Shown in pieces: positions 1,123-60,905 of a stretch of DNA of 64,000 bases. This stretch comes from Arenicola marina (lineage: Eukaryota; Annelida; Polychaeta; Arenicolidae), in NCBI GenBank assembly GCA_964019135.1, contig OZ025257.1, positions 40,441,798-40,505,797 on the forward strand, given 5' to 3'. Within the stretch, counting starts at the first letter, position 1, and each line of letters begins with the position of its first letter. The notes under the pieces are model-generated. The model worked only from the letters and a program-made list of their open reading frames with translations. It was not told the origin of the DNA and made no database searches. A program made the translations under genes and the position numbers.

Positions 1123-2211
1123 CCAACAGAGTTTGCAATAAATTGCGAGGAAGCAAGGAACGACAGGATTCTCAATGCCGGACTTCTGTTCCAGGTCAAT
1201 TGCTTACTTCTATAAATATAACTGTGTTTAGTTCCAACGTTATGGAGGAAGAGGCATAGTGACGTCATAGGGTGAGGCATAGTGACTTCACAGAGACGAG
1301 ACGCTGTGATCACATATTGTAGCGGTAGCGCCCAAGTGCCGTCTATGTGCAGTCAATCATTAAAGTTAATAATAATTGGATATCCGCCATAGAGGTAGAT
1401 CGCTGCTCGCCCTGGCATGAACAATGTTTGCGTCAGACGGTTTACCTTTTATCCCTGCCACATACTCCAAATTATCGAGAAGGCAGTTGACCATGTGATG
1501 GCCTGTCACTGCAGTCTTATGTTCGCGATCCTCGCTGAAAGCTCGCCTATCTCCTGTTTAATCCCAATATCGCTAGGACATCACACATACATCATTCTCC
1601 AATATAGTAAGACAGTCGTGGTATTTCTATTTATCGCTCCCATGAACTTCATTATATTATGTTTGCGAGGATCTTCAGAAAAAGAACCTGAAGGCTCTAA
1701 AAGCTTACAATGACGCAACGTGTTAAGATACAATTTATTGAGAATCCTTGAGAGAATCTATATGTCATCGCTTCTGGCCATATATGGCTTTATCTCTGCG
1801 CACAATGCATATTCTGCCCGAATCAGACAGCATTTGAACGGAGTTTGCAGGCTTGTAGTAAGACAAATGTCACGCACAAGCCAATACCATATACCATATC
1901 CTCCTCTCCCACAACGTCAATAAAAATGCCTCTGTTGTGACCTTATTAAAGGAACTGTTGGTTTGCACGCTCACACCTCAGACCTGATATGGCCTCGCCC
2001 CAAGGAACCCCTATCCTGTGGCCAAGTCGAGCCTCGGCAAATATTTGAGGCACCGCTTCATGACCAGCACCTTTGCTGCGGACGATTGGACGACAACTCG
2101 GGGTGCACCGTCACGGACACGATGCGGTGAAGATGTGTGGATGTGTGTGTGTGAGGAAAGAACCAATATGTTGAAGGTGGTTTTAATAGGCAATAATAGA
2201 TCGATGGGTCG

Positions 2212-2262
2212 CAGCAAGAGACGTCTGTGTGGGGAGTTACAGAGGGAGCTCTGGGCGGTGGG
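2212..2262 (+). repeat. Single ancestral-type unit of the 54-bp minisatellite
   Basis: One unit (gggtcgcagcaagagacgtc, then tgtgtggggagttacagagg) sits here between the same flanking phrases that bracket arrays of about 25 units in A3 (47775-49130) and A4 (59625-60905). This copy is therefore an unexpanded allele-like state of the same locus within the repeat unit. Confidence 0.8.
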
Positions 2263-2621
2263 ACGGCGACCGCTACCAACAGGTTGGCAGGCCATTAACG
2301 GACACTCTTGGACAAGGCGGTTAAATAAATCACACATCTCTCCCCATGGCGACCTGAAGAATGCAGGAGCCTTTTCGGGGTGACTCGGGGCATGTACAGG
2401 CCTGAACCTGGGGGACTGCAGCCTGAAGACCTGGATAAGTTGAAGGCGGAAGCGCAAACAAAACTACTTAATGGTTAGTTGTTAGTGGTTCTTGAGCGAC
2501 TGATTTGTGGCTGCATCCATGCCTCAATCTTGACACACACGCCTTGGACCCATGGACCATAAAACCGCTCAGGTCAAATCCATTGATAATTTGTGACAGA
2601 TAACTGCGACAGATATCCGTG

Positions 2622-2688
2622 AAGCTCGGTTAGCTCAGCCGGTAGAGCATCAGATCGTTGCTGGTCGGGTCATTCGAGCACTGAAGCA
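2622..2688 (+). promoter_or_regulatory. tRNA-like segment with Pol III A box and weak B box
   Basis: The segment contains a perfect A-box match, tagctcagccgg (2631-2642), and 25 bases later ggtcattcgagc, a B box broken by extra bases. The ends aagct and the closing ctgaagc are tRNA-like but no full cloverleaf forms. The same segment recurs in A4 at 61136-61200. It looks like the tRNA-derived head of an old SINE carried inside block A, not a functional tRNA gene. Confidence 0.6.
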
Positions 2689-3439
2689 TTGATTTGTCAG
2701 GTTAAAAAAGAAACTTGTTGGACTAACATGAAAATAAGATGCTCTACACGATCGTCAAGGTTCGAAGAGAAATTCAAGATCCTAATATGTTATGTTACCA
2801 CCATTTGGAAGTTAGTTCATAGGGTCCCGCCTGTTTGCCGGTTCGCATGTTCAAATTGTGATGATAAAAATCAGTCGATACAAAATTTCTTGCAAATAAT
2901 TATGACGGGTCACAAATGTACATTTGGCTGTAATAGGTGCAACAATTGTAATAAGCTTTAGCCTAGGCGCCCCGTAGACATCTTGTTCTATCGACAGGAC
3001 ACCAAACCGTGTCATCACACTCGCCACGCTGAGCGAGCGATGTAGCAATGCAGATTTACGTCTTCCATTTGCTGACCCCATGGGAACTTCATTTCCGGCC
3101 GTTCGCTTTGATCCACAAGCAGGCTGTTACTGTTCACATGCAATCCGTTTGGGAGACATGAAGTCGGCGATACGACCCTATTACCATTTGTATTAGACTC
3201 CCTTCACATTGTACGCACCCACAGGAGTAACGTTATAACCAGGCCTTATTCCCCATTCAAAGCTTGTCTCTATCATCATGACCTTCGACCTCGAAAAGCG
3301 GACTGGGGTTTGGTTTGTTTGATGGATGGCAGTGTGTTTTTGTGTTCATATGTATGTAGGGAGGGGGGCGTGGTGGCTAGGACGTACCACTCTATTTGTC
3401 ATTGCATTATTGGTATGCACCGTATCTACCGACACTCAT

Positions 3440-3680
3440 ACTCCCCACCCACTCCCCCCCTCACACTCCAGCCCCGTCCAGATCTCCACCCACACTCTAT
3501 CCCCACCCGGATCCCCCCTCGCACTCCAGCCCCGCCGAGATCCCCATACACACCCCATCCCCACCCAGATCACCACCTACACTCCATCGCCACCCAGATT
3601 CCCGCCCACACTCCATCCTCACGCAGACCACTATACACACAGCCGTACTCGCATGCATCTGACCCCACTCCACCTACCCC
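3440..3680 (+). repeat. C-rich degenerate minisatellite (cccacccagatcc type)
   Basis: Irregular units of about 20 bases built from ccccacccagatccccac and variants. Related tracts lie at the matching place in A3 (49640-49890) and A5 (63535-64000). The proline/histidine/threonine-rich open frames over this tract follow from its composition and are not called as genes. Confidence 0.8.
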
Positions 3681-3904
3681 ACACCCATATGAGGTCTCTA
3701 TCTCCACCCCATTCCGCATCCCAACCCCACATCATGTAAACCGAGCCATGGAATCCCAATCCTGTCATCAACCTGCAGTACCATCGCCTTATACGTCCTA
3801 CGGTCTGGACGCCCTCGCCATACAACCGACCCGCTCGCCGCCCCTGTCCTTCCTCTGTCTAGACTAGCCACACGTTGTATGGCGGTGTGCCTCATGCATT
3901 GTTT

Positions 3905-4060
3905 ATCTGACGTCACTGAGTCTCGTCGAGGGCGGGACGGCTGTCCATTGGGGTCAACCTGGTAACGATATCTTGTCGCTCTCATTTCTCATCTGATGGG
4001 TAAGGTGGCGGTGTGGGTGGGGGCGGGGGGTCAGAACCTAGGGGCGGTATATATACCACC
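3905..4060 (+). promoter_or_regulatory. Putative Pol II promoter conserved in block A
   Basis: The region has a CRE-like tgacgtca near 3909, an inverted CCAAT motif (attgg) near 3950, G-rich boxes, and TATATATA at 4048-4055 followed by a short C/T-rich stretch where a start site would fall. A3 keeps the same order: acgtca, ccaat, G-tract, and TATATATA at 50225-50232. Conservation of the whole arrangement between copies supports a promoter. No coding exon is evident downstream in block D, so any transcript would probably be non-coding. Confidence 0.5.
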
Positions 4061-6350: not shown

Positions 6351-6540
6351 AAGAATTGATTGTTTTTGACAGGCATGCAACTTGTTTCTCAATGTCCCAA
6401 GCAATCTGCCGCATACGCCAAGCAATCTGCCACATACGTAAAGTGGCCACCGGCCACATCGCTAATACAGCACTAAACCAGGCTCCACCAGTTTTATTCG
6501 CTGTTACTGTGCTTCTGCATTTTCTTAAACAGTACCTCAG

Positions 6541-7830
6541 ATGGCACCCAAACGCAAGCCGCAGGATGCGGCCCCGCAACCACAGTCCAGCCGAAAGAGA
6601 GGGCGCATCAGTGGCAAGAAGGCCAGCACCCCGTCGACTACTGGCAGCAAGGCAACCAGCGCCCCGCTTGCCACAGCCAGCCAGGCATCCACCACACAAG
6701 CGACCACTGGCAGCGCAGCGGATGACGTCCTGCGCAAGACGTCTGACATGTTGTCAAAAGTGATGACGTGTATGGAGAACATGACCTCGCTCGCAGCGTC
6801 GCTGACCGCAGCCCAAGGCAATAACCCAACGCCAGGGGCCGCCTCCACCTCCGCCCTCCCAGACATGGGGGACTGCATGACGCAGGGCCCAGCACTCGCG
6901 GCAATCGGCTCGCCATTGAACGGCGACCACGACCCAGAGGAGGACAGCCACCCAGCTGCGGATGACGGCATCGACCACATCTTCACCAGCTGCCACGCCG
7001 AGGGCGACCAAGGTGAGCTACCCCTTGGTGCCGTGTTGTGGCAGGAACCGATACGACCACGCCCGATGGTGTCGGCAGGCGCTCCCATCGGTCAAAACAT
7101 TGACCTCAAAGTCAAACAAAAAATCTGGTGCCATAAGTACATTGACGTCAATGAGCTACTGAACCCCCATCAGCAGGCCACCTACACCCTATCGCTAGAA
7201 ATGGACCATCAACAGCCGGGCGCTTAAGTTTAACCAGGCCCGGCACCGGGCTTCTACCATACAGTATTGGAAACGGGCCTGGGACATATTTACCGCTATA
7301 TACGTCCAAAAGTTCCCAGGGCAGCTCAACGACATCCTCATTTATGCAAGGGACGTGAAGTACCTCGCGGAGCAGGGAGCGAATTGGTTATTTTATGACC
7401 AGCAATTCCGCCTAGACAGGGAGTTCACGCATTGCACATGGTCCACAGTTAGGCAGGATCTGTACCATCAGTGCACCACCAGGACGTCGTCATTCACCCC
7501 AGCCAGAAACCATTTTCGTCCCTCCTACAATAACAACAACTACAACAACAGATCTAACCCCCTCAGCCAAACTCACACTTTCACACAACATCGCAACGCC
7601 ACCCCTCCAGGCTACTGCTTCGCATTCCATGCCCGCGAACAGAGATGCATCGCGCGTGGCCAATGCAGGTTTAAGCACAGTTGTTACCGTTGCCAGCAGC
7701 CACACCCCGCCTTCAAATGCCCCACGTCACGCCCCGCAGTCACCCGTCCCCCCACTACCCACGCCCGTAAAGATTTGGGCGCTTGCCCATCACCCATTCA
7801 AAGCCCGCATAGAAAGCGGCTTTACCTCAG
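6541..7830 (+). mobile_element. Gag-like region of the Ngaro-type element
   Basis: The first part encodes a basic, Ala/Ser/Pro-rich start (MAPKRKPQDAA) and a low-complexity stretch, as in DIRS-group Gag proteins. Near its end is a compact cysteine/histidine knuckle (CYRCQQPHPAFKC). It is not intact as a single reading frame. It immediately precedes the RT-RH part. Confidence 0.65.
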
Positions 7831-7849
7831 GTTTCAAGGTTGGGTTTGA

Positions 7850-9317
7850 AGGGGAGGAGGGTGATTTACGCTCCAAGAATTCACAGTCAGCTCTCCTTAA
7901 TCCCGCAGTTGTCAGAGCAAAAATCAAACAGGAGTTGGAGGCTGGGCGTATAGCTGGCCCCTTCAACAAACCACCCTTCCATCACTTCAAGTGTTCCCCA
8001 TTAGCACTGCGGGAAAAGACAACACCTGGTAAATATAGGCTCTTACACAACCTGTCTTATCCCTACGACTCCCGGTCGGTCAACAAAGGCATACCCTCAC
8101 AAACCACCACTGTTACATACCAGAACATATCCAACGCTATTCAACACATTCAACACTTACACCACCTCACAGGCCACGTCTTCATGGCAAAATCTGACAT
8201 AAGCAACGCTTTTAGGCTTCTACCCCTTCACCCGTCACAATACCATCTGATGGGGTTCACCTGGGAAGGTGCGTACTACTATGACAAATGCCTCCCCATG
8301 GGGTGCGCAGCAGCATGTGCCATCTTTGAAATGTTCTCTGACGCCATTCAATGGATCTCTGAAACAAAGCTACACATCAGTCACACAACCAAAATATTAG
8401 ATGACTTCCTCTTCTTACACCCTACACAGACAGGTTGCCAGGCACAATTATCAGCCTTCGTGCAGCTTACAAATGAAATTGGGGTGCCGGAGAAGACCGT
8501 AGGACCCGTGCAGACCATTACCTTCCTAGGCATCGAACTGGATACGAAAAAACTCCAGGCCCGACTGCCAAAGGAAAAACTCGAGCGCTACGCTTCGGAC
8601 ATTGACAAATACACGGATTCCCATAAGATCACCCTACGGGAGCTCCAGTCCCTTGTAGGAAAACTCCACTTTGCCACGTCGGTCGTACAGCCGGGCCGCC
8701 CATTCTTGCGCCGCCTCATTGACCTGTCAAAAGGGGTAACATGTCCCTCACACTACGTGAGGCTCACATTGCCAGCTAAGCAAGACCTCCGGACGTGGCA
8801 CGATTTCTTGAAGTGCTACAACGGGGTCTCCATCATATCGCACCTTTCTCTCGGTACATCCCCTGCTATAAACATGTACTCAGATGCTTCCGGCTCTGGA
8901 TACGGCGCGACCTTCGGGTCTTCTTGGATACAAGGAACATGGCCCACCACATGGGCATCTTGCCACATTACAATCCTTGAGCTCTACCCCATCCTTCTCT
9001 TACTACAAGTCTTTGGACACAAACTGCGTAACTCGGTTGTCATTTTTCACTGCGATAATATCGCCGTAACACACATACTTAAGACACAAACGTCCCGTGA
9101 CCCGAAGATCATGGCTATCGTAAGACCTTTGGTGCTATTTTGCTTGCACAATAATACCAAGTTCTTAGCGGTACACATTCCGGGCGTGACAAATGTACTA
9201 GCAGATGCCATATCTCGTTCACAGGTGACTCCACAATTGCTGCGTCAGTACAGCATGAAGCCCCTGCCGGAGCCTATACCTGACAGGTTCCTGCCCAAAA
9301 ACTTCAATCTACAATAG
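7850..9317 (+). mobile_element. Reverse transcriptase and RNase H of the Ngaro-type element
   Basis: One long open frame shows the DIRS-group RT signatures: MAKSDISNAFRLLPLHP (motif A), LPMGCAAACAIFEMF (motif B) and LDDFLFL (motif C). A Ty3-like RNase H follows with MYSDASGSGYGA, ITILELYP, FHCDNIAV and LADAISR, which supply its usual acidic residues. The product would act with Gag in reverse transcription of the element RNA. The tyrosine recombinase region begins directly after it. Confidence 0.9.
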
Positions 9318-9319
9318 AC

Positions 9320-10230
9320 ACATTGGTCGGCAGATCACTGACGAAGTCCACTGTCAGGGCATACCAGCACCACTGGCAACAGTGTCTTCACTTTATCCGG
9401 AATACACTCAGGCACAACGTGAAACTTCCACTACAGCCACAAGCAATAGCTTCATTCATTGCCCACCTATACAAAACTGGAAAAAGGTACTCCACCATTC
9501 TCACATACATAACAGCAGTGTCGTTCGCTCACAAAATCAGATCACACCAGGACCCCACAGCTAAATTCCTCATCAAACGAATGCTAATCGGCATAAAAAA
9601 GACCACTCAGCCGACACAACGGCTGCTGCCGATAACAGCCGATGTGTTGGAATCATTGCTATCCCAAATGATCGCGGTACCATGGCCTGCTATTCAAGGC
9701 GCTATTCACGCTGGCTTTTCACGCTTGCCTTAGAATCGGGGAACTCGTCATTTCCAACAATAATGCAGATAACATACTGCGCCTGGAACACATTAACATG
9801 CCCCCTTCGGCCTCCAGTGCCCAACACATGGGCATCACATTCCACTCCTACAAACACAGCACAGGGGAAAGCACACAGATCACGGTCCAGGGGGTTCCTG
9901 GGTCGGGCTCGTGCCCTATCATTAGCCTCCGTTCCTACCTGGAGGTACGACCCGGCACCCCGGGTCCACTCTTCCTTACCCTGGCCGGCCGCCCACTCGA
10001 TCGCCAACAAGTGGTCGACTTCCTGAAGCTTACCTTGCGATTAGCAGGGCTTCCGGAACACCGATACAACACTCGTTCCGAATCGGCCGCGCCACTCAGC
10101 TTGCACAGGACAACATATCGCACGCAACCATTAAACAAGCCGGACGCTGGAAATCTAACGCCTACACGGCATACATACGTCCTAAACAGATCTTGCTTCC
10201 TACGCCCTCACCCTCTAAGTCCTCCTAACC
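9320..10230 (+). mobile_element. Tyrosine recombinase region of the Ngaro-type element
   Basis: The N-terminal, SAM-like core-binding part is clear (TKSTVRAYQHHWQQCLHFI and ITAVSFAHKIRSHQD). A catalytic-domain region follows (SCPIISLRSYLEV, GRPLDRQQVVDFLKLTL). In this family the enzyme integrates circular DNA copies without making target duplications. The region is not intact as one frame, in keeping with a fossil copy. Confidence 0.75.
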
Positions 10231-10439
10231 ATTCGATATGGGCCCCTACCTTTCTCCCCGCGCCGTTCACTCCATCTCCTTGCCTGCTTTGCTTCCTCTT
10301 CTTGGGTGCCAGCTCTGACTCTGCCGGCCATTTCCCGACGAGTCAGACCTTCTTGGCGCTCCTTATGAGGAGGGCACCCATCACTACACGCCACTCCAAC
10401 TAAGTCTCATACATTGCCTCATGCTAGTCACCACCCTCA

Positions 10440-17975: not shown

Positions 17976-19328
17976 CTTCAGCACCATTATCACCAGCTCT
18001 CAGTCCCTTAATTAACAGGCCTACCTCTCCCCTCCAACACCATTATCACCAGCTCTGAGTCTCTGGATTAACTGGCCTATTAACCCCCTTCAACACCATT
18101 ATCACCAGCTCTGAGTCCCTGGATTAACTGGCCGATCGCTCCCCTTCAGCACCATTATCACCAGCTCTGAGTCGATGGATTAACTGGCCTATCGCTCCCC
18201 TTCAACACCATTATCACCAGCTCTGACTCTCTGGATTAACTGGCCTATTAACCCCCTTCAGCACCATTATCACCAGCTCTGAGTCCCTGAATTACCAGGC
18301 CTATCGCTCCCCTTCAGCACCATTACTACCAGCTCTGACTCCCTGGATTAACTGGCCTATCAACCCACTTCAACACCATTATCACCAGCTCTGAGTGCCT
18401 GGATTAACTGGCCTATCTCTCCCCCTCAGCACCATTATCACCAGCTCTGACTCTCTGGATTAACTGGCCTATTAACCCCCTCCAACACCATTATCACCAG
18501 CTCGGAGTCCCTGGATTAACTTGCCTATCTCTCCCCTTCAGCACCATTATCACCAGCTCTGAGTCCCTGGATTAACTGGCCTATCTCTCCCCCTCAGCAC
18601 CATTATCACCAGCTTTGACTCCCTGGATTAACTGGCCTATCAACCCCCTTCAACACCATTATCACCAGCTCTGAGTCTCTGGATTAACTGGCCTATTAAC
18701 CCCCTCCAACACCATAATCACCAGCTCGGAGTCCCTGGATTAACTGGCCTATTAACCCCCTCCAACACCATTATCACCAGCTCTGAGTCTCTGGATTAAC
18801 TGGGCTATCAACCCACTTCAACACCATTATCACCAGCTCTGAGTGCCTGGATTAACTGGCCTATCTCTCCCCCTCAGCACCATTATCACCAGCTCTGACT
18901 CCCTGGATTAACTGGCCTATCAACCCCCTTCAACACCATTATCACCAGCTCTGAGTGCCTGGATTAACTGGCCTATTAACCCCCTCCAACACCATTATCA
19001 CCAGCTCGGAGTCCCTGGATTAACTGGCCTATTAACCCCCTCCAACACCATTATCACCAGCTCTGAGTGCCTGGATTAACTGGCCTATCTCTCCCCCTCA
19101 GCACCATTATCACCAGCTCTGACTCCCTGGATTAACTGGCCTATCGCTCCCCTTTCAACACCATTATCACCAGCTCTGAGTCTCTGGATCAACTGGCCTA
19201 TTAACCCCCTCCAACACCATTATCACCAGCTCTGACTCCCTGGATTAACTGGCCTATCAACCCCCTCCAACACCATTATCACCAGCTCGGAGTCCCTGGA
19301 TTAACTGGCCTATCGCTCCCCTTCAACG
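17976..19328 (+). repeat. 56-bp minisatellite, about 24 copies
   Basis: The unit is accattatcaccagctctga followed by gtccctggattaactggcct and a variable atc/att-rich end. Variants alternate (tattaaccccctcc, tatcgctcccctt, tatctctccccctc) in a non-random order that hints at higher-order duplication. It lies directly downstream of the 3' end of the cGAS-like gene, so it may overlap the 3' UTR. Confidence 0.95.
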
Positions 19329-19437: not shown

Positions 19438-21154
19438 TCATGTGACCTGTGAGACGACACAGAGCTGACGGCAGACCTCCGCGTGACATTTATAGAAGCA
19501 GGGGTAGGGAAGCCAGCGCCAGATAGAATACTGGGCTCGCCACCTGTCGTTTTGCTTGTCTTCCAATGCGAACACAGGCTTTCCCCGCTCTGACCACGGA
19601 GGGATGTCCTCAACCCCCTCACCCGTCAGCAGGGGGTGAGTGAGAAGACTCCAATGCTCCAAGTCAGTCGCTAGGTCTCTCATGAACGGTCCCACCTCCC
19701 CCCGCGCCACCCTCTGACCCGCTCCTTCCACCAAGTCAGTCAGGACGAAATATTTGAGGACGGCGGAAGGGACCTCAAGTTGGGGTGAGGATGGAACCCC
19801 CACAGCCTCGCCCACAGCGGGGTGGAGGGGGGCGCCAGGGTCTAACTGTTTCCGGGCCTCACGGGTCAGGTCGTCACACAGGCTACACTGACCATGACAC
19901 CCCTCCGCCCCCCGCCCCGCCCAGTGTGCTGTGTTGGTGGCGGACACAACCAACGCCACCCGGCTCCAGTAAACACCCTCCCCGGCCTCGTTCTCCCCCT
20001 CCCCCTTCCTCCTGTCAGGAAGCCTCAGCCTCCCGGTCTCCAACGCCTCAGTAACAATCTCATGGAGCCCCTCCACGTCCACCAACCCCCCAATACATCT
20101 CTGGGACCCCCTACGCCCACCCGCCATGTCGGCCAGGGTGTCCCTGGCATCTTTCACCTCACTTTCATCCAGGGCGCGCCACTTGAGGTAGCGCCTAGCC
20201 AGTAGTTTGAGGCCCCGAATGAGGGTGACAGGGGGTGAGTGCGGCCCGAGGGCGACCAGCGCTTCTTTCTCTAGGAGGGACGTCGTCGGAAACCACCTAT
20301 TCTCCGCCGGCACCAGATGGACGGGATGTGAGGACCGCTCCAGCCCCGCCACCAACTCCAGGCGGCACAGGACATCCAGGGTGACTATCTTCAGGGCGTT
20401 CCGGGGGACAGGGAAGGCGATGGTGAGGTCAATGGTCAGCCTCTCACCCTGCCACACCAGAGTCTGGGTGGCAGTTGTCCGTCCGACCTTCACCCCGGTG
20501 TACCTAGGGGAGAGGGGACCGCCGTGGGTCAGACCCTCGGGGAGAGTGACGGTGGGCTCCACGGTAAGCAGTCCGTCGACCCAGCGCCTCAGGAAGGCCG
20601 CAGGGTCCAATTCGCACTCCTCCGCCCCCTTCACGTCACGTGACTCACCTCTGAGGACACTCCTCCTCCCCCCCTCCCGGCAGGCGGCCAGGAACTCGCC
20701 TCTCACCCACACCTTCCACTTCACCCCTCCCTTCCCCTCCTCTATTACCACCCTCACCCCCTCCATAGCTAAGCTAACTAAAATGTCAAACTCTGTAGCC
20801 GTTGGTCTGACGTCAGTCCGATCACCGTGGCTACCGACTAGCGTTTCCTGGGCTCCGACGAATAGGCGGTCCCACCTCCCGACCGCCTCAACCAGGTTAC
20901 AAGCAAGAGTCCATACATTTATGCGTATTGCCACCGTGTCCGGGTGACCCCAGTCATAGGTCCCCCCCTCCAGCCTGGCCGCCTCCTCCGTCAGGGTGCC
21001 GGGGGGTCGGCCCTCCACCCGTGACCGGGCGCTGCGGACCGTGGCGGTCTGAGGGCGGTACTCCACTGGCAGCTCCGCCTCCCAGATGAGGGTCTCTGTG
21101 GTGGGCTGGAGGTCCTGGGGGAAGGTTGAAGGTGGAGTGAGGTCCTCGCGGGTG
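19438..21154 (-). CDS. Catalytic exon of the cGAS-like gene
   Basis: The minus frame is open from 21201 to the stop at 19438. LVGSHGDRTDVRPTATEFDI aligns with the GS loop and EFD motif of cGAS (E at 20793, D at 20787). GERLTIDLTIAFPV supplies the third aspartate (20430), and LDPAAFLRRW precedes it as LSA..L/I does in the family. HLVPAENRWF and TSLLEKEALVAL match the cGAS/Mab-21 phrases YLVP and FS..EKE.L. MAB21L1 itself lacks the last catalytic acid, so this protein is closer to active cGAS-like enzymes. The C-lobe is diverged, and the usual SYHxKT phrase is not found. A GCHGQCSLC cluster lies near 19900. The exon is GC-rich against AT-rich flanks. The acceptor at 21155 follows a T/C-rich tract; an ATG at 21201 is an alternative start for a shorter 587-residue form. 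Confidence 0.8.
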
Positions 21155-24100
21155 CTTGTGCGGCAGGGATGAAAAGAAGCTGTTTTTAGACATTTGTCCA
21201 TGAATAAGAGAAAACATTTACCGCAATATAAGCTTTGCTCTTAGATCTACAAATTATAGTTATAGCTTGTTTACTTAAACACATCAGTTTACTCAGCAGC
21301 TCTGAGCATATCTTCATTAAGTGACCATCATGCTTAGAGTTTTAGCTCTAGTTCTAGTATATTACAGAGCTGATGAAGATATAAATATATACACGTAGAT
21401 GTAACTCTTCTTGGAAGTCGATATTCCGTAGCTTACATATTCGTTAAATCTTATACAATAGACTAATAGTTAACATAGAGATGACAGTTAAAGCAATATA
21501 TTGACATGCGCCATCTTAGGTTTTTCACACTTTAGAATCAAGACAAAAAGTATCTCAAAATTTATGATGCATATGTTTTACATATCTTTGAGTCTGTAAA
21601 AGAAACATTTCAACATAAACCTGCACGGTTTATTTGTATCGCGAACGGACCTGATAGCGAGCCGCTGTCGACATCACACACAAAATAGCGAACTGTGAAC
21701 AGGCGCTCAGGGATATAAAGCCGGCCACCAACTTCCTAGTTAGGAACTTCCTAGTTAGGGGCGCACCGTTTCTTATCAGAGGGGCCGGGGGGTGGGGGGG
21801 GGGGGGGAGGGCGGGCGCTAGAAAATATTTGAAAAAAATTAGTTTGTTGTGACTATTTGGGGGAAAAATGTTTGCTTCTCAGATGCTACAAAAAATAACT
21901 TGCTTTCATAATCAAAAAAAAAAAAGTTTAATACCGTATAAATAAATTTCGAATGGAATTATCAAGCTAAAAACCAATAGTTGCATCTGTTCACCGACAA
22001 GTTGTAATATTTTATGAACTAAGGAAATAATTGAATGACAAAGATACAAAAAAAAATGTCAATAAATTTGTGAAAAATAAAACAATTGCATGGTAATTTA
22101 TTTTCTAGCCCCCCCCCCTGATATGAAATGGTGCGCCCATTAGTGTGCTTCGATTACAAGCTGTATATTGTTCTATTGTTCTATTGATTTGTTTACACTC
22201 CTCTCCTTTTCGTGTTCAATTATCTTTCATCGGCGAAAGGGTCCGTGTATATACCGTCCAATCGTTTTTCGTTTTTAATATGATCATAGCAAAAACGAAC
22301 CACGAACTGAATAACCGTTTTTCATTATTCGTTTGGCGACATAGAAAAAGAAAATTGGTAACAAAAACCGTTTTTCGTTTTACGTTCGCAAAACAAAAAA
22401 TGAAAAACGGTTAGGCATAACGGTCAGTGTATATACCTTCCATTCGTTTTTCGTTTTTACTATAATCAAACGACAGACGAAAAACGGTTAGGCATGACGC
22501 AAACGTTGTTCGTTTCGCTGTATTCGCTATCGATTTTATGTTACATTATGCGCGGTTATGTGGAACTTCACACATTACAGCATCGACTGCTGCTTCACGA
22601 GTCATTTGATTTACTGTGCATGTGGCAGAATATGGCTAGTTCCGTGCTCTTCATTGGGTACCAAAAGAATGTCCGTCACGGGACATGACATGACTTCATT
22701 TCAAATATGTCGGATTTTCCAGGTAAGATATAATTTACTGTCATAAGCCCGGACATCATAACCACCACAATGGTGTTCAGTGCCAGGGGACCCGCGACTT
22801 CCCCCACCCCCCCCACCAACTCCCCCTCCACTTCTGTGTATTCGCTGATGTACTCTGTCTGTGCTTGTATGTCAAAATAAATATGACCAAACATGTCCCA
22901 TATGCGTTTATTTATTAAACTTGCATTGCCTTGGTATATTATATCGACAAAAATGAAGCAACAATAGTGATACTGATAATTTCTTTGTCAGTTTGTGAGC
23001 CTATTTTCAGGTCTATAGATCCGTCACTGCATGATTTTGAGGTATAATTTAGTCAGGAATAAACAAGATTATTTTTTATGTTCAATTAGAAGACTACATT
23101 GCTGTTTTTGGGTTGGGAGAAAATCTTTCGGAATATTTGTTACCTATGTGATGGGTCTACCATGGCATCATGCCTCCCAGCGTGGTTATGTTTTCTATAT
23201 TTCCTATATTCTGTATAAGATCGTATGGAACTCCAATATTTGTATTTGTATTTTATCTTCTATATTTTAGCTAAATTCCTATGTTTATTATATTTTGGGT
23301 ATCACATTATTCATAGATAATTAAATGTTCTTGATATAAGTTGGATTTGTGTTGTAGGCCCAGATAGATGGCCCCACAAAGCGCATTGACCGGACATTTT
23401 GCCAAGCTATGTTTATCTGCTATCGTGAAATGTCCTGAAGTCGTTAAGCTCAACGTGACCTTATGTTGTAAGGCTCCAGTCAATCCTGTCTAACCTCAGG
23501 GAGGGAGGGGGGGGGGAGTAATTAGATACATGAAACATTTTGACCAATTTTCGCTTTTTATGTCGCAAAACGAATAATGACAAAAGGTTATTGAGTTCGT
23601 TTTTCGTTTTTTTGATGATCATATTAAAAACGAAAAACGATTGGACGGTATATACATGGACCAACGAGGCCAATGGACTATATCTACATCAGGAAAGAAA
23701 AGTAACGTCATGCTTATAACCTGCGACAGGCGCGGATCCAATGGGGCGGGTGGGGGGGGGGGGGTAGTGTAGGGGTATGGGGGGCCTTGTATTTGGGCGA
23801 GGATGCTAGATTCTTTACTGTCGACCAGAATAATATATGTTGTGGTTCAGGAGCAATAAGGTATATAGGCACAGAGCCTTCAGGTTGAGGCGGTACATCA
23901 AATGTTTTAAACATGAACTTAATATCAAAATGCGCCATGCTTAAAACCTTCTTGCAGTACCGTTGATCAAGTTAGAGAATTCACTGCGGACCCCCCCCCC
24001 CTCCCCCCCATCCCAGGGGCGAATGCAGGAATTTGAAAAGGGCAGCGGGGGAGGTCCACTAACAAAAATTGCGAATAGGGGTCCGCCGATAATGTATTGA

Positions 24101-27100
24101 CCACCGGAGGTGGGGGGGGGGGGGGGCGGAAGACACTAGTAGGATGGGTGGGTCCGCCTTGGAGAATTCTTCAGCATTCTTCCTAAAAAAAGGGAGACTG
24201 TAGGCTACCCCATGCAGGGCGACTGCAGGCTGACCAGTACGGGGTGAGTGCAGACTGACCAGTACGGGGTCAGTGCAGACTGACCAGTACGGGGTGAGTG
24301 CAGACTGACCAGTGCGGGGTGAGTGTAGGCTGACCAGTACGGGGAGAGTGCAGGCTGACCAGTACGGGGAGAGTGTAGGCTGACCAGTCCGGAGTAAGTG
24401 CAGGCTGACCAGTACGGGGAGAGTGAAGGCTGACCAGTACAGGGATAATGCCGGCCGACCAGTACAGGGGGAGCGCAGGCTGACTAGTACGGGGTGATTG
24501 TAGGCTCACCAGTATGTGGCGATTGCAGGCTGACCAGTACGGGGAGAGTGTAGGCTGACCAGTACAGGGAGAGAGCAGGCTGACCAGTACAGGGAGAGAG
24601 CAGCATGACCAGTACGGGGAGAGTGTAGGCTGACCAGTACGGGGAGAGGGCAGGCTGACCAGTACAGGGCGAGTGCAGGCTGGCCAGTATGGGGAGAGAG
24701 CAAGCTGACCAGTACGGGGTGTGTGCAGGCTGACCAGTACGGGGTGTATGCAGGCTGACCAGTACGGAGTGAGTGCAGGCTGACCAGTACGGGGTGAGTG
24801 CAGACTGACCAGTACGGGGTGAGTGCAGACTGACCAGTACGGGGTGAGTGTTGGCTAACCAGTACGGGGAGAGTGCAGACTGACCGGTACAGGTAGAGTG
24901 CAGGCTGACCAGTACGGGGTGTGTGCAGGCTGACCAGTACGGAGTGAGTGCAGGCTGACCAGTACGGGGTGAGTGCAGGCTGACCAGTACGGGGTGAGTG
25001 TTGGCTAACCAGTACGGGAAGAGTGCAGACTGACCGGTACAGGGAGAGTGCAGGCTGACCAGTACGGGGTGTGTGCTGGCCGAACAGTACGGGGTGAGTG
25101 TTGGCTAACCAGTACGGGAAGAGTGCAGACTGACCGGTACAGGGTGAGTGCATGCTGACCAGTACGGGGTGAGTGTTGGCTAACCAGTACGGGAAGAGTG
25201 CAGACTGACCGGTACAGGGAGAGTGCAGGCTGACCAGTACGGGGTCTGTGCTGGCCGAACAGTACGGGGTGAGTGTTGGCTAACCAGTACGGGAAGAGTG
25301 CAGACTGACCGGTACAGGGAGAGTGCAGGCTGACCAGTACGGGGTGTGTGCTGGCCGACCAGTACGGGGTGTGTGCTGGCTGACTTGTACGGGGTGAGTG
25401 CAGGCTGACCGGTACCGGGAGAGTGCCGAATGATGGTGTACGGGGTGAGTGCAGCCCGTCAACACAATGGAACCCTTTCCAGACTGTAGATATTGCGGCC
25501 GTGGAAGAGTAAACAGGCAGCCTCACTGACCTGTACAGCGGCAGCCATCTGCTCTCGTCATCCTCTTCATCTTCAACAACTTCCGGCGACTCGTCATCTT
25601 CCGGCGACTCGTCATCTTCCGGCAACTCGTCATCTTTCGAAGATTTCGAAGTGGACATCCTAAGTAGAGCGAACAAAGCATGCGACACAAGTGCGATCGA
25701 ACGAGGAAGGAGAGCAGTGAATCTGTCGCCGCTGGGCAGCTCAGTTCTGACAAAGCGGAAGCGGAAGCTGCTCCAGCGCGACATGAATCCTCCGTTCAAT
25801 GGTGGAAGCACAGATAACAACAATGTCTCTCCAAATAGCAACAACCCTAAAAAGCGGCACATGTTTCATGTTACATCTTCTCATGAGGCAAACTGGCTCC
25901 AAAACGTATTGGCGTATTTTTTTAAAAATTTAATGGCGTAATTTGATTTCAGCATGCCCATATTACCATCCCGTCCAATAGGAGGTCAATAATTGCGGAG
26001 ACCCAACATACGACATCAGGTTACAGGAACATGTTCTAACTTATCTCTGCATCAAAGTGGTTTGACCGGTTTGACCGAATGCCAGACGTGACCCACCGTA
26101 GTTAGTACTAACCATTTGTCATCCGGTCACTCGGACCGAAGGTCCATAGGTTTTTGGCCTAACTAATGTTTTTAGACCAAACTAAGATAGTTATAAGACG
26201 TCCAGATTGCGACTATCCGGCATTAACGCTTGCTGTTGGCAAACTACTTATTTTCTCAAATTTTTGGGCCAAATAATTAGGAGGTTTAAATGTAGTCTAA
26301 ATTAGACAACTTTTTTCAATATTTTAATATTGGACCATATTGCCTAAATTACCTAACGTTTTACCTTGCTATTGTGGTTAATAACGCGCCATGCTGCCCC
26401 GCAATGACCCATGGTACCCTAGTCCATGGTTTATACATGGTCACTCGGGCCATGAACTTAGGGCAATCGTCATGCAAAGTGACTATTTTTGTGTTTAAAT
26501 CGTTGTTTGTTACGAATCCGTCGCACGGATCTTCCTTGCAACATGTCCCTTGTTTATATCACGTCCCATTAACATGCAAATAATGGACTAATGGTGAATA
26601 TGTACGGAACGACTGACTAATTGGTGCAGCAATAGTTCTGGTCAACTTACGGCTGGTCTCTGGGTGTCTGTGCTCTGGACGACTGCTCTCCGGGTGCCTG
26701 GTCTCCGGACGACTGCTCTCCGGGTGCCTGGTCTCCGGATGACTGCTCTCCGGGTGCCTGGTCTCCGGACGACTGCTCTCCGGGTGCCTGGTCTCCGGAC
26801 GACTGCTCTCCGGGTGCCTGGTCTCCGGACGACTGCTCTCCGGGTGCCTGGTCTCCGGATGACTGCTCTCCGGGTGCCTGGTCTCCGGACGACTGCTCTC
26901 CGGGTGCCTGGTCTCCGGACGACTGCTCTCCGGGTGCCTGGTCTCCGGACGACTGCTCTCCGGGTGCCTGGTCTCCGGACGACTGCTCTCCGGGTGCCTG
27001 GTCTCCGGACGACTGCTCTCCGGGTGCCTGGTCTCCGGATGACTGCTCTCCGGGTGCCTGGTCTCCGGACGACTGCTCTCCGGGTGCCTGGTCTCCGGAC

Positions 27101-30100
27101 AACTGCTCTCCGGGTGCCTGGTCTCCGGACGACTGCTCTCCGGGTGCCTGGTCTCCGGATAACGGCTCTCCGGGTGCCTGGTCTCCGAGTCTTGCCAAAT
27201 CCCTGTACAGTAAGACTAGGCGGTCAAGCATAGCATGAGAAGGAAGACGAAAATTGAGGTTTGGGGAACAGTTCGACCATGTCAAGAAACTTTGCGACTC
27301 TTAGATATGTACATACATTATCAACCGAGTTATAGGCCGAAACGTCCCCACGCCGTCAGTAATTTGGTGTATCGAGGCTTCTTAATGGGATGTTAAGGTT
27401 TTTATTATTTCTTCCAAAATTGTGTCCCAAACACTGGTTCGTTTTCGATGGAATTTGGCCCAAGTGATGTCAGTAATATTGGTACATATTTCACCACAAA
27501 TAGGCCATCTGCCTGCATGCATTGGTCACGGCGATTTTTGCGCCTCCCTTTATTCAAAAAAAAGTTCCAAATCTAGTCCCAATATTAACAGAGTTACGCG
27601 GTAAAACATGTTTCCGGACCTTGACCCTAGTGTGAACTTGACCTTGGGGCAACCTTGACCTTGGATGCGTGGCGTTGATCAATATAGTCATCCGCGACCC
27701 AAAAATAATGTGATGTCTTTCGCACCAGGTCGTTTGTCTGACTTGTCCCATTCATATAGTAATTGATGAGTCACTGTCCCGCCAAAATGCTCTCATGGGG
27801 TCCCATGTTAACGTGTGGGATTTTGTTTGCAGAAACATTTGTTGGAATAGATATATGTACCATTCTATGCCAGTTATTTAGCAAGTGTGTCCCGTAGTTT
27901 AAAGTGCGATGATGATTAAGTTCGTCCTTTTTTCAAGCGGTTATATACACTTCAATGGTTATCGCCCATTGGTCAGTTTAGGAGGTAGTTTCACTGGAGT
28001 TAGCGTCCCTGGGATAGGGGTATAAAAAGGACCAGGCTACAACAGCGGTGGGGGAATATTTGTCCGGGGGAGTGCTGGGCAGACAAAGTGAAGTCATAGT
28101 ATGACATGATCGTGAGAGAGCTTTTTCTAGTCTTTACAATGTAACATTGCGTTATACCTCACTAAAGGTTTACTGTGACCCCCTTTCTGTCTCCCATTCA
28201 GGTAACACACATTTATGTATCACTACAGTGAGTTATTACATATACAGATACATATGTCATCAAAGACATAAACAGAAAGACCCTTTCAGTTTGATGTAAC
28301 CCCAGTTCATTGTCCCGGCAGGTCTCGTGGCTCAATTTAACTTTAATGTGTGCAAAGGTTGCCTAACACACGAACATTGCATGCGCCGCTGTCCTAGGGT
28401 CGAGTAGTTGGGGTCAATATAGGCCTAGAGAAACACTCAAGATAGCTCTCTGTACGAAGATTAACATATAGAACACGTTGACATTCGAATTAAAACGTGA
28501 TCGTACTTATAAAACGTAGAGTACTTCCAACATCAGTCCACGTTAGCAAGACATACACGTCGATACGAAATGGCGTAGCAAGATCTTCTGGAAGCTGACG
28601 CGATACTACGGAAAAATTTAAACTACGACGTGTAGGATAAAACCCAACGGGAGCTGACGAGTAGAGCGATAATAGAGGAAGAGGCTAGAGTGCGTCCTCG
28701 AAGGCCCATTCGGTTGTTGGTTTAGTGTTCGTGTTACTGTTTGTGGAGGTTCTAACCATTATCTGAGGAGTGTTTTGGGTTAGGGTTAGTTTTAGCGACG
28801 ACCGCCAAAGGATAGTCAAAGGCAGATGTGTGGTCGAACCATGAGCTCTGTTCTTATACTTGCCACCGTGACTCCCCTGACCAAATCGTCACCTCCTCCC
28901 CTCCCCTCCCCACTCTTGCGATCAATCACCCATCGCGACCGGCTGCCGCTCATTTATGCGATCAGTCACCCACCGCGACCAACGGCCGCTCATTTATGCG
29001 ATCAGTCACCCATCGCGACCAGCGGCCGCTCACTCGTGCGATCAGTCACCCATCGCGACCAGCGGCCGCTCACTTATGCGATCAGTCACCCATCGCGACC
29101 AGCGGCCGCTCATTTATGCGATAAGTCACCCATCGCGAACGGCGGCCGCTCATTTATGCGATCAGTCACCCACCGCGACCAGTGGCCGCTCACTTATGCG
29201 ATAAGTCACCCATCGCGACCAGTGGCCGCTCACTTATGCGATAAGTCACCCATCGCGAACGGCGGCCGCTCATTTATGCGATCAGTCACCCACCGAGACC
29301 AGCGGCCGCTCACGCGTGCGATCAGTCACCCACCGCGACCAGCGGCCGCTCAGTTATGCGATCAGTCACCCACCGCGACCAGCGGCCGCTCACTCGTGCG
29401 ATCAGTCACCCATCGCGACCAGCGGCCGCTCACTTATGCGATCAGTCACCCATCGCGACCAGTGGCCGCTCACTTATGCGATAAGTCACCCATCGCGAAC
29501 GGCGGCCGCTCATTTATGCGATCAGTCACCCATCGCGACCAGCGGCCGCTCATTTATGCGATCAGTCACCCATCGCGACCAGCGGCCGCTTACTTATGCG
29601 ATCAGTCACCCATCGCGACCGGCGGCCGCTCATTTATGCGATCAGTCACCCATCGCGACCAGCGGCCGCTCATTTATGCGATCAGTCACCCATCGCGACC
29701 AGTGGCCGCTCATTTATGCGATCAGTCACCCATCGCGACCAGCGGCCGCTCATTTATGCGATCAGTCACCCATCGCGACCGGTGGCCGCTCATTTATGCG
29801 ATCAGTCACCCATCGCGACCAGTGGCCGCTCATTTATGCGATCAGTCACCCATCGCGACCAGCGGCCGCTCATTTATGCGATCAGTCACCCATCGCGACC
29901 GGCGGCCGCTCATTTATGCGATCAGTCACCCATCGCGACCGGCGGCCGCTCACTCGTGCGATCAGTCACCCACCGCGCTACGGCTGATCACAAGAATCAA
30001 CGCTACGAAAATCCAGGAGAGAGGCTGCACCTGGAGCCACTTTATATGGGATCACACAGTCCAGATGGTATAATCAGGGGTAGATTTAGGCCTTCCGAAG

Positions 30101-46740: not shown

Positions 46741-47774
46741 TATTTAACGTAGGCAGCGCGGAGCGGCAAGAAGCAAGACTCTTTTTATGGTTAGACTACC
46801 ACATAACGAACGACACAGATGTAAGGCCATTCATTGCATGATGTTTGTGATAAAATCAAAGGCCGGAGAAGCGTGGTTGGAAGATTTTCTTCATTCAACA
46901 TCGTGTATGAGCAGGTTCCTGGTCATCACGGGCCTTTCATCCAATAGACTGTGCTTTCAATTTCTATTTCTGAACAATCTGAATATTTCTGGGACGTATT
47001 GTAGTGCTAGGCCTCTATTCACCATTTAAAAGAGTTAAGTATATTAACCTTACCTACTTGAGATCCAGAAACTTGTGTACAAAGTGTGACAATATACAGA
47101 ACGTAATGGGGCATCTTGAATAATAAACACGTGATGACGCCATCTTAAATAATAAACACGTGATGACGCCATGTTAAATAATAACCAACACAGTTTGCAA
47201 TACATTTGCTATGGAGCAGAGGAACGACAGCATTGTCAATGTCGAACTTCTATTCCGGGTCAATAGCTTACTTCTATAAATATGCGTTATGGAGGAAGAG
47301 GCATAGTGGCGTCATGGGGTTCACTACAGAAACGAGATGCTGTGATCACTCATTGTATTGGTCTCTGTGTCTATGTGCAGTCAATCAATCATTAAAGACA
47401 GTAATAATTTGATATCCGCCTTAGAGATAGATCGCTGCTCGCCCAGGCACGAAAATTGTTTGCGTCAGACGGTTCACCTTTTATCCCTGCCACAGACTAA
47501 TTTATCGAGAAGGCAGTTGACCATGTAATGGCCTGTCACTGCAGTCTTTTATGTTCCTATCGTCAATCCCGATATTGCTAGAGCCTCATACATACATCAA
47601 TCTATATGCCACTGCTTCTCGCGCCCTATAGGGTTTATCTCAACGCACAATAAATATCATTGCAGTGCATATGGGAGGCTTGTGATGAGATTCATCTTAC
47701 GCATAAGCCAATACCATATGCATATCCTCCTCTTCCACAAGGTCAATAAAAGTTCCTCTGTTGTCACTTCATTA

Positions 47775-49130
47775 ACTATTTGGGAAGTTACAGAGGGAGG
47801 ACTGGGTTGCGGGCCCCAGCAAGAGACGACTATTTGGGAAGTTACAGAGGGAGCACTGGGTTGCGGGTCGCAGCAAGAGACGTCTATTTGGGGAGTTACA
47901 GAGGGAGCACTGGGTTGTGGGTCGCAGCAAGAGACGTCTATTTGGGGAGTTACAGAGGGAGCACTGGGTTGTGGGTCGCAGCAAGAGACGTCTATTTGGG
48001 AAGTTACAGAGGGAGCACTGGGTTGTGGGTCGCAGCAAGAGACGTCTATTTGGGGAGCTACAGAGGGAGCACTGGGTTGTGGGTCGCAGCAAGAGACGTC
48101 TATTTGGAGAGTCACAGAAAGAGCACTGGGTTGTGGGTCGCAGCAAGAGACATCTATTTAGGGAGTTACAGAGGGAGCACTGGGTTGTTGGTCGCAGCAA
48201 GAGATGTCTATTTTGAGTATTTTAGAGAGAGTACTGGGTTGTGGGTCGCAACAAGAGACATCTATTTGGGGAGTTACAGAGGGAGCACTGGGTTGTTGGT
48301 CGCAGCAATAGACGTCTATTTGGGGAGCTACAGAGGGAGCACTGGGTGGCGGGTCCCAGCAAGAGACGTCTATTTGGGGAGTTACAGAGGGAGGACTGGG
48401 TTGCGGGCCCCAGCAAGAGACGACTATTTGGGAAGTTACAGAGGGAGCACTGGGTTGCGGGTCGCAGCAAGAGACGTCTATTTGGGGAGCTACAGAGGGA
48501 GCACTGGGTTGAGGGTCGCGGCAAGCGATGTCTATTTGGGGAGTTACAGAGGGAGCACTGGGTTGTGGGTCGCAGCAAGAGACGTCTATTTGGGGAGTTA
48601 CAGAGGGAGCACTGGGTTGTGGGTCGCAGCAAGAGACGTCTATTTGGGAAGTTACAGAGGGAGCACTGGGTTGTGGGTCGCAGCAAGAGACGTCTATTTG
48701 GGGAGCTACAGAGGGAGCACTGGGTTGTGGGTCGCAGCAAGAGACGTCTATTTGGAGAGTCACAGAAAGAGCACTGGGTTGTGGGTCGCAGCAAGAGACA
48801 TCTATTTAGGGAGTTACAGAGGGAGCACTGGGTTGTTGGTCGCAGCAAGAGATGTCTATTTTGAGTATTTTAGAGAGAGTACTGGGTTGTGGGTCGCAAC
48901 AAGAGACATCTATTTGGGGAGTTACAGAGGGAGCACTGGGTTGTTGGTCGCAGCAATAGACGTCTATTTGGGGAGCTACAGAGGGAGCACTGGGTGGCGG
49001 GTCGCAGCAAGCGATGTCTATTTGGGGAGTTACAGAGGAAGCACTGGGTTGTGGGTCCCAGCAAAAGACGTATATTTGGGGAGTTACAAAGGGGGCACTG
49101 GGTTGTGGGACAGGCATAAGTTGAAGGCAC
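47775..49130 (+). repeat. 54-bp minisatellite with a 648-bp higher-order repeat, about 25 copies
   Basis: The unit is gacgtctatttggggagtta, cagagggagcactgggttgt, gggtcgcagcaaga. A run of 12 units including the odd unit ttttgagtattttagagaga recurs: that odd unit starts at 48211 and again at 48859, 648 bases (12 units) apart. The unit length of 18 codons without stops produces long open frames (for example 459 codons) on both strands, which I do not call genes. Confidence 0.95.
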
Positions 49131-55552: not shown

Positions 55553-57390
55553 ATTCTCTGATTCTCTTTCTGTTAACCTTCTAAAATTGATTAAAGATGA
55601 AATCTCTGTAGCCCTGACCTTCATTGTGAATCAATCACTGGCAACAGGCATCTTTCCGTCTAAACTGAAAATTGCCAAAGTTGTACCAGTTTATAAGAAG
55701 GGTAATGAAAATGATATTAGCAACTATCGTCCAATATCCATTTTGCCGGCCATGTCTAAGGTTTTTGAGAAAATAATTGCTAACCAACTCTACAGTTACT
55801 TTGACATAAATAAACTGTTTAGAAATAGTCAATACGGATTTCGCTCCAAACATTCGACTGACCTAGCTGTATTAGAGGTTGTAGATCGTGTCCTTATATC
55901 AATGGATCAAAACCAACTTCCCGTTAGTATTTTCCTTGATCTTTCTAAGGCTTTCGACACTATTGATCATGACATATTAATCAAAAAAATAAATCATTAC
56001 GGAATCCGCGGAATGGCCCTGAGTTTGCTGGAGAATTATTTAACAAATAGATCGCAATGTGTTTGTCTGGATGACGTCACGTCAAACATGACGAACATAA
56101 CGACAGGTGTACCACAAGGTTCCATTCCAGGACCATTATTATTCATAATTTATATTAATGACATAGAACAGTGTAGTAAATTCTTTAAATATATAATATA
56201 TGCGGATGATACCACGCTTTTCTTTTCACTTAACTTATCTACAGCTGGAACATCCTCTATTTTTATAAATGCAGAAATTAGAAAAATAAAAGAGTGGTTG
56301 TCTGCAAATCGGCTAGTTCTTAACATAGAGAAATCTAAATATATGCTTTTTTATACGCCACAAAGAAAGGTAAATCCAATAGAGTTGTCAATTAACAATA
56401 CGCACTTGGAGTGTGTTGATGAATTCAATCTGTTGGGTATCACCATAAATAAACATCTTAAGTGGCATAATCATGTACGAAAAATTGCAAACAAAATAAA
56501 CAAATCCATTGGCATTATGCATAGACTGAAACATATCCTTCCCCAACACGTTTTACTAAGCCTGTATAATTCATTGATTCTGCCTCATATAACAACAGGG
56601 ATCCTGCTATGGGATTATGACAACACCAATTTGTTTAGATTACAGAAAAAGGCAATGAGGGCTATTACGCTAAGTAAATGGAATGCGCACTCCGAGCCTC
56701 TGTTTAAACAACTGCGATGCCTAAAGATAACCGACATACATAAACTACAGCTGCTAAAATTTTATTACAAACAAAAGACGGGAATTCTTCCAGAATACTT
56801 GTTGAATCTACCGCTTACTTCGCTTTGTGATATACACCATCATAATACCAGACGTAAATCGTATGTCTTTACCAGTAGAGCCAGACATTCTTTTGCCCTT
56901 AAGTGTATCAGACATAGCCTTGTTGATCTAATTAATAATGAACCCAACAGTGTTCTCTCTAAAATAGACACGCACAGCATACATGGATTCACAAACTACA
57001 ACAAAATCATTATTCTAGATAATTACTCCTACGACTGTACCATTGAAAACTGCTACATATGCCAGTATTAACATTTATTTATGGAGGGGTAAGTGTTTGT
57101 TTTGGAGAGGGGGGGTCTAAGGATGGGGGGTGGTTCGTTAAAATTTAGTCCAAACGTTTACCCTTTGTATGATACGTTTTGTTTGTTTTTATGTTCTACT
57201 TGCGTGTTCCGCCATCTAAGCATTTTTGTTTGTATGAACTGATATGATAAGGTGGCCAGGCGTTAGCGATTAATTAATCTTAGCCTGTGTCTCCTAACCT
57301 GCAATACCTGTGTAATGCGTATGTATTCATGTAACAACAGATTTATTTGTTTTGGTTAAATAAATGAAATGAACTCTGAACTCTGAGGTC
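55553..57390 (+). mobile_element. 5'-truncated CR1/L2-like LINE with an intact reverse transcriptase frame
   Basis: A frame open from about 55554 to 57071 (nearly 506 codons) encodes the whole RT domain: KVVPVYKKG, NYRPISILPAMSKVFEKI, QYGFRSKHST, VSIFLDLSKAFDTIDHDI (catalytic Asp), TTGVPQGSIPGPLLF, YIIYADDTTLFF (catalytic Asp pair) and LNIEKSKYMLFY. The post-RT region follows with LYNSLILPHITTGILLWD. The endonuclease and first ORF are missing by 5' truncation. The 3' UTR ends in repeated gaactct units, as in CR1/L2-type tails. It is inserted in the third C block, which resumes near 57390. The open frame implies a recent insertion. Confidence 0.85.
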
Positions 57391-59624: not shown

Positions 59625-60905
59625 ATGTGTCGATGGGTCGCAGCAAGAGAAGTCTATTTGGGGAGTTACAGAGGGAGCTCTGGGTTGTGGGTCGCAGCAA
59701 GAGAAGTCTATTTGGGGAGTTACAGAGGGAGCACTGGGTTGTGGGTTCCAGCAAGAGAAGTCTATTTGGGGAGTTACAGAGGGAGCACTGGGTTGTGGGT
59801 TCCAGCAAGAGAAGTCTATTTGGGGAGTTACAGAGGGAGCACTGGGTTGTGGGTTCCAGCAAGAGAAGTCTATTTGGGGAGTTACAGAGGGAGCACTGGG
59901 TTGTGGGTTCCAGCAAGAGACGTCTATTTGGGGAGTTATTGAGGGAGCACTGGGTTGTGGGTTCCAGCAAGAGAAGTCTATTTGGGGAGTTACAGGGGGA
60001 GCACTGGGTTGTGGGTTCCAGCAAGAGACGTCTATTTGGGGAGTTACAGAGGGAGCACTGGGTTGTGGGTTCCAGCAAGAGACGTCTATTTGGGGAGTTA
60101 CAGAGGGAGCACTGGGTTGTGGGTTCCAGCAAGAGAAGTCTATTTGGGGAGTTACAGAGGGAGCACTGGGTTGTGGGTTCCAGCAAGAGAAGTCTATTTG
60201 GGGAGTTACAGAGGGAGCACTGGGTTGTGGGTTCCAGCAAGAGACGTCTATTTGGGGAGTTATTGAGGGAGCACTGGGTTGTGGGTTCCAGCAAGAGAAG
60301 TCTATTTGGGGAGTTACAGAGGGAGCACTGGGTTGTGGGTTCCAGCAAGAGACGTCTATTTGGGGAGTTACAGAGGGAGCACTGGGTTGTGGGTTCCAGC
60401 AAGAGAAGTCTATTTGGGGAGTTACAGAGGGAGCACTGGGTTGTGGGTTCCAGCAAGAGAAGTCTATTTGGGGAGTTATTGAGGGAGCACTGGGTTGTGG
60501 GTTCCAGCAAGAGAAGTCTATTTGGAGAGTTACTGAGGGAGCACTGGGTTGTGGGTTCCAGCAAGAGAAGTCTATTTGGAGAGTTACAGAGGGAGCACTG
60601 GGTTGTGGGTTCCAGCAAGAGAAGTCTATTTGGAGAGTTACAGAGGGAGCACTGGGTTGTGGGTTCCAGCAAGAGAAGTCTATTTGGGGAGTTACAGAGG
60701 GAGCACTGGGTTGTGGGTTCCAGCAAGAGAAGTCTATTTGGGGAGTTACAGAGGGAGCACTGGGTTGTGGGTTCCAGCAAGAGAAGTCTATTTGGGGAGT
60801 TACAGAGGGAGCACTGGGTTGTGGGTCGGAGCCACAGACGTTTAATTGGGAAGTTACAGGGGGGGGGGGGGGGCGCTGGTTTGCGGATGGCAGCAAGAGA
60901 CGTCG
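59625..60905 (+). repeat. 54-bp minisatellite, about 23 copies
   Basis: Same unit as the A3 array, but most copies have gggttccagcaagagaagtc where A3 has gggtcgcagcaagagacgtc. Variant units (gttattgaggg, ggagagttac) allow internal duplications to be traced. Long open frames on both strands (493 and 432 codons) follow from a stop-free 18-codon unit. Confidence 0.95.

Follow-up and report, generated by a model that had tools for sequence, protein, structure and literature searches.

Among the closest described systems are the animal cGAS-like receptors (cGLRs), which Li et al. (PMC9980059) collected in a survey based on an iterative sequence search, on a motif of fixed form, and on C-lobe homology together with predicted structure. 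Membership there is judged by the motif, by homology over the core and C-lobe and by the predicted structure, and the motif itself is given as h[QT]GS X8-20 [DE]h[DE]h X50-90 h[DE]h. The last acid is not kept throughout the wider family: MAB21L1 has Q169 at the third-acid position according to PMC4897736, which bears out the first-pass annotation on this point, and PMC9980059 places Mab21L1, contrary to Q169, among proteins with complete putative sites. Here we compare these proteins with a large open frame from the annelid Arenicola marina whose product, judging from its sequence and at a probability of roughly 0.6, is a nucleotidyltransferase of the cGAS/Mab-21 superfamily that has diverged strongly.

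The frame lies on the minus strand of the window (the whole 64,000-nucleotide stretch of DNA analysed here) at 19438-21240 (-), where it runs from stop to stop over 600 codons plus a TGA, with residue 1 at 21240. The part that starts at residue 43 very probably codes for protein: it continues for 558 codons without a stop, its sister minus-strand frames hold 26 and 30 stops, and GC at codon positions 1/2/3 is 0.67/0.49/0.74; among 500 Markov-1 sequences with matched length and composition the longest stop-free run was 341, and 558 was reached in none (0/500). An exon had been proposed at 19438-21154, and its coding nature stands whereas its start at 21154 is doubtful. GC3 jumps from 0.48 before residue 43 to 0.88 after it, and an acceptor-like CCTTCCCCCAG, which ends at 21115 (-), adjoins the jump; from these two features we infer that the exon starts near 21114, which gives a large coding exon with a most likely extent of 19438-21114 (-), comprising residues 43-600 and the stop. 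No exons were found 5' of it, and an in-frame ATG at residue 14 and upstream exons are both candidates for the protein start. A strong donor-like site is present at 20648 inside the frame, but a hidden intron there is unlikely, since none of nine AGs (intron lengths 61-208 bases) offers a frame-keeping acceptor and the codon bias runs on through the segment.

The catalytic signatures first noticed in the exon, GSHGDRTDVRPTATEFDI and LTIDLTIAF, are present exactly as quoted, on the minus strand in frame 19438-21240. They comprise a GS loop at G136-S137 (20830-20835, -), placed by both the block test described below and MAFFT, the first two putative metal-binding acids in E150-F-D152 (20785-20793, -), and D271, the third putative catalytic acid, within LTIDLTIAF (residues 268-276; 20413-20439, -). 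The reported spacing of 119 residues is that from D152 to D271; the numbering E363/D365/D484 that accompanied it does not fit the frame, where the 600-residue product gives E150, D152 and D271. Both flanking phrases that had been called matching are also there. LVP (residues 309-311; 20308-20316, -) matches YLVP of cGAS and MB21D2 at a fitting spacing and is marginal taken alone (p 0.064), and LLEKEALVAL, at residue 322, overlaps WFPTTSLLEKEAL (residues 316-328; 20257-20295, -), a candidate counterpart of cGAS WRLSFSHIEKEIL whose assignment is uncertain. The LLEKEAL stretch is not above chance alone (p 0.42), and its block even has a higher score elsewhere in the frame, at residue 123. The strict published motif is absent from the frame, which has V before GS in place of Q or T and an X of 116, beyond the 50-90 allowed. 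A relaxed form of the motif was found in 223/5000 shuffles and a looser form in 296/5000, and we regard the bare motif as weak evidence.

The frame was also read in its residue context by a block test, in which short blocks receive position scores and must occur in order with loose spacing. Blocks were taken from human cGAS, mouse cGAS, MAB21L1, 8gjy (cGAS-like receptor 1) and MB21D2, with the block boundaries and a five-block subset picked after viewing the protein and the alignment. The GS and ExD blocks together gave a score that 5/2000 shuffles reached (z 4.1); addition of the third-Asp block raised the frame to 37.6, reached by none of 2000 (z 6.7), and five blocks gave 60.0 against a null of 18.0 ± 5.3, reached by none of 4000 (z 7.9). 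On the five blocks the best of 49 other window ORFs (at least 150 aa) scored 19.3 and the best of 122 ORFs of phage D29 scored 25.3, and family members scored when left out gave 69.3 (MB21D2) and 72.3 (8gjy). Eight blocks reaching up to the first C-lobe helix, non-fitting ones included, still gave 55.0 (0/3000 shuffles, z 6.1); here four OAS sequences scored 30-34, and left-out family members, every one of them well above the frame, 81-180. Across the spacing-limited versions with at least three blocks, z was 5.5-7.9 and none of 1500-4000 shuffles reached the frame. It also stood above 264/264 decoys (ORFs of 200 aa or more, read in six frames from one phage, two plasmid stretches and one E. 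coli stretch) in each of three test versions, with highest decoy scores of 26.6, 37.5 and 38.7 against 37.6, 60.0 and 55.0 for the frame.

The strength of this result depends on how the blocks are combined. When spacing limits are lifted, eight blocks including the C-lobe give z 2.0 (37/1000 shuffles), four other subsets are reached by 1, 11, 75 and 219 of 1000, and the five subsets together span z 0.7 to 3.9. Scored singly, the significant blocks are ExD (21.2, reached by 0/500 shuffles) and third-Asp (15.2, p 0.010) and no others; the GS block contributes 1.1 points, and the HLX, LSA, SFS, CRK and C-lobe blocks are at chance level one by one. The signal in these scores is located in the ExD and third-Asp strands, and it is the catalytic part of the earlier interpretation that comparison with known proteins bears out, the likeness of the flanking phrases being upheld in part. 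That the acid triad sits in a cGAS/Mab-21-like context is shown statistically, by scores for blocks chosen post hoc.

An unrelated protein with coincidental motifs is one alternative to family membership, which we consider rather unlikely. The ease with which shuffles produce the relaxed motif, the chance-level scores of most single blocks and the lack of confirmation from profile, HMM and structure searches all speak for it, but coincidence would have to supply the order, spacing and residue context of at least three blocks, which together beat every shuffle, in a frame that also beats every decoy.

Profile searches gave the following results. A missing Mab-21 profile hit had been named beforehand as refuting the cGAS-like interpretation, and Pfam returned no PF03281 match at all, the frame not reaching the gathering cut-off for a family whose positive controls, human cGAS and MAB21L1, scored 3e-49 and 5e-44; that interpretation keeps its motif pattern and three acids and loses its profile match. 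With E allowed up to 1 the full frame matched no Pfam family, and neither did any of eight overlapping pieces with E allowed up to 10, a limit within which HMMER filters remove most matches above about 0.1; PF20266 matched neither the frame nor the pieces. NCBIfam and PDB phmmer searches gave nothing relevant for either, the PDB search with a 279-aa piece yielding two glycoside hydrolase entries with E near 1. PADLOC had no match for the 558-aa product and, for the 279-aa piece, one sub-threshold match to an oligonucleotide cyclase model (E 0.069), situated at the GS/ExD stretch. Unfiltered HMMs, made with sets of four or five cGAS/Mab-21 proteins, scored the frame at -0.1 and -0.5 bits, under several shuffles and other window ORFs. 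In hhalign against cGAS/Mab-21 the top local match was again the GS/EFD stretch, at a probability of 0.9% (P 0.059), and when the protein was added to a cGLR alignment with MAFFT, G136, S137, E150, D152 and D271 fell on the corresponding cGAS residues.

Searches for relatives covered the window itself and microbial sequences. The best other match in the window was a stop-interrupted stretch at 63277-63501 (E 0.023), with all others at E 3.9 or worse. Viral and prokaryote contigs gave 2 and 62 pattern matches with no relatives among them, in a search whose reach is close relatives, and tblastn gave two records in plasmids and one in phages, with best E values of 0.4 and 1; their annotations are peptide synthetase, primase/polymerase and hypothetical protein.

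Compared protein by protein, human and mouse cGAS and the frame carry GS, E-F-D, D-(I/L)-(T/I)-(L/I)-A-(L/F) and LVP in the same order, but the acid interval is 92 in human cGAS and 119 in the frame, 161 residues follow LVP in human cGAS and 289 in the frame, and the CRK/zinc-thumb block of cGAS is not recognised. Human MB21D2 (PDB 7lt1 chain) is closer in spacing, with 117 residues from D to D, and shares the third-acid strand and the LVP motif, its five-block score when left out exceeding that of the frame (69.3 vs 60.0); it differs in carrying SGG where the frame has GS, and in having a Mab-21 C-lobe alignable with cGAS, whereas the frame has neither a C-lobe match nor a profile match. With the animal cGLRs of PMC9980059 the frame has the three acids in common, and E150, D152 and D271 stand in a cGAS-like context, as that survey asks. 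Homology extending over the core and the C-terminal helix bundle together was not detected, the bundle being the part without a match, a result that a more sensitive method might change. Because the published motif and C-lobe homology were both lacking, we do not file the protein as a cGLR, the label that had been suggested for it. MB21D2, which the authors of PMC9980059 accept, also exceeds the motif interval. These absences lower the case for its being a cGLR, not the case for a catalytic core that works like a cGLR core.

The GS loop with its acids is equally a feature of OAS (human OAS1 and OAS2, pig OAS1), and the frame shows a loose likeness to these proteins at LIRGLK and PCF. Were the protein related to OAS and not to cGAS, linear 2'-5' oligoadenylates would be its product; LIRGLKLLARRY would then correspond to OAS SLIRLVKHWY, and KPVFALED...WLPYPCF at the C-terminus to RPVILDP...WLNYPCF. 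All eight OAS blocks do occur in order, at a score reached by 3/1500 shuffles, but with z 3.3 against 5.5 for eight cGLR blocks, and the N-terminal OAS blocks reach z 1.9-2.8 against 6.3-7.6 for those of cGLRs. The two C-terminal OAS blocks, reached by 31/3000 shuffles, do not discriminate, since on this pair the non-OAS protein MB21D2 reaches 35.0 and the frame 32.3; likewise five OAS blocks score human cGAS (47.0) above the frame (41.0). An hhalign comparison picks out WLPYPCFYK with P 0.024, but at a probability of 2.0% over 11 columns, and Pfam gives no OAS1_C (PF10421) match where the human OAS1 control gives 1.6e-90. The frame further has E-F-D where OAS1 sequences have D-A-D, and altogether we judge an OAS affinity very unlikely. 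Between the two block sets compared, cGAS/Mab-21 and OAS, a nucleotidyltransferase in this frame would most likely belong with cGAS/Mab-21.

The segment WLPYPCFYK, at residues 576-584 (19489-19515, -), resembles the OAS ending WLNYPCFKN without being discriminating. This ending is striking by eye and was rejected as a candidate after failing the block controls, in which MB21D2 was higher on the C-terminal pair.

Beyond LVP, residues 312-600 (289 aa; 19441-20307, -) form an unrecognised C-terminal half in which none of the known C-lobe blocks rises above chance. The SYH block of the C-lobe has its best score outside this half, ahead of the core at residue 12 (p 0.064). The block test and MAFFT also place the start of a C-lobe differently, MAFFT setting the cGAS E383 block on residues 354-361 and not on 316-328; as the two methods disagree on WFPTTSLLEKEAL, we name no C-lobe residues. 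Two cysteine clusters are visible in the half, CHGQCSLC at residues 448-455 (19876-19899, -) and C581, C585, C590 and C594 near the C-terminus (19459-19500, -). Single-sequence structure predictions of 558-aa and 275-aa pieces had mean pLDDT of 34.9 and 37.5, too poor to read, and PDB fold searches with them showed no recognised nucleotidyltransferase among the 50 matches listed of 138 and the 50 listed of 366 (E up to 10), fold matches of such low-pLDDT models being meaningless. The new C-lobe proposed in the first-pass annotation is thus possible but unproven.

Should the superfamily assignment hold, the protein might be a catalytically intact cGAS-type synthase with a substituted ligand-sensing lobe at its C-terminus, or with one that has grown by some 130 residues, where the cysteine clusters (448-455, 581-594) take the place of a recognisable zinc thumb; we put this replaced-lobe model forward as less likely than not. 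In the main reading, and judging from the family, the GS loop would hold the NTP triphosphate, and E150, D152 and D271 would hold two divalent metals and activate the acceptor hydroxyl. A ligand bound by the enlarged, cysteine-containing C-terminal half would open the active site, and the opened enzyme would join nucleotides into a small messenger; the nucleotidyltransferase fold, the binding of metals, the catalysis, the ligand and its product as well as any immune role are all presumed here from the family. Among titles and abstract openings found in a search of open-licence literature none described a C-lobe replacement of this sort, which is weak evidence of absence.

For certain MAB21, MiD or ITPRIP-like proteins, scaffold or structural roles have been put forward. 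The frame could similarly encode a Mab-21-superfamily protein that keeps the acids and serves as a scaffold or structural component, not as a signalling enzyme, a reading that overlaps with the family assignment and that we hold to be unlikely. The authors of PMC4897736 observed no nucleotidyltransferase activity for MAB21L1, and no sensing, signalling or receptor-type domain was found in the 95 ORFs scanned of the 232 other non-repeat window ORFs of at least 62 aa. Retention of three acids together with a GS loop argues instead for selection on catalysis, in so far as one sequence, which cannot itself show selection, may be read in this way.

Returning to the diverged cGAS/Mab-21-type nucleotidyltransferase, we regard the exon as a plausible, unconfirmed outlier and not as a proven new sensor. 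If the replaced-lobe model is true, it would stand for a sensor branch invisible to present profile searches and to the published cGLR motif filter. Were the protein a real member despite failing on profile, motif and C-lobe homology alike, the animal cGLR repertoire would be undercounted. Real membership would also imply a sensing lobe far more changeable than the catalytic core. If the protein is not a member, the case shows how far likeness in a few motifs can mislead.

The surrounding window is rich in minisatellites and contains retroelement reverse transcriptases; no tRNA or Rfam matches were found in it. One reverse transcriptase lies at 7416-9314 (+; RVT_1, E 6e-8), with further ORFs around it within 6529-10400 (+), an arrangement that we take to be possibly that of a DIRS-like retroelement; one of the 95 scanned window ORFs has a weak match (E 0.006) to an integrase N-terminal SAM-like domain. 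A LINE-type reverse transcriptase ORF occupies 55554-57068 (+; RVT_1, E 5.9e-35). Long minisatellite arrays with listed periods of 25-56 are found at 17976-19327, 24217-25454, 26649-27187, 28917-29977, 47776-49109 and 59634-60863, amongst others; the end of one array lies some 110 bases past the stop codon of the cGAS-like frame, and several arrays can be read without a stop in more than one frame, which gives rise to spurious long ORFs. Short arrays of 28-29 base units occur at 955-1122, 47112-47184 and 58545-58640, where by eye these distant sites carry similar units, ACGTGATG...AATAATAAAC.
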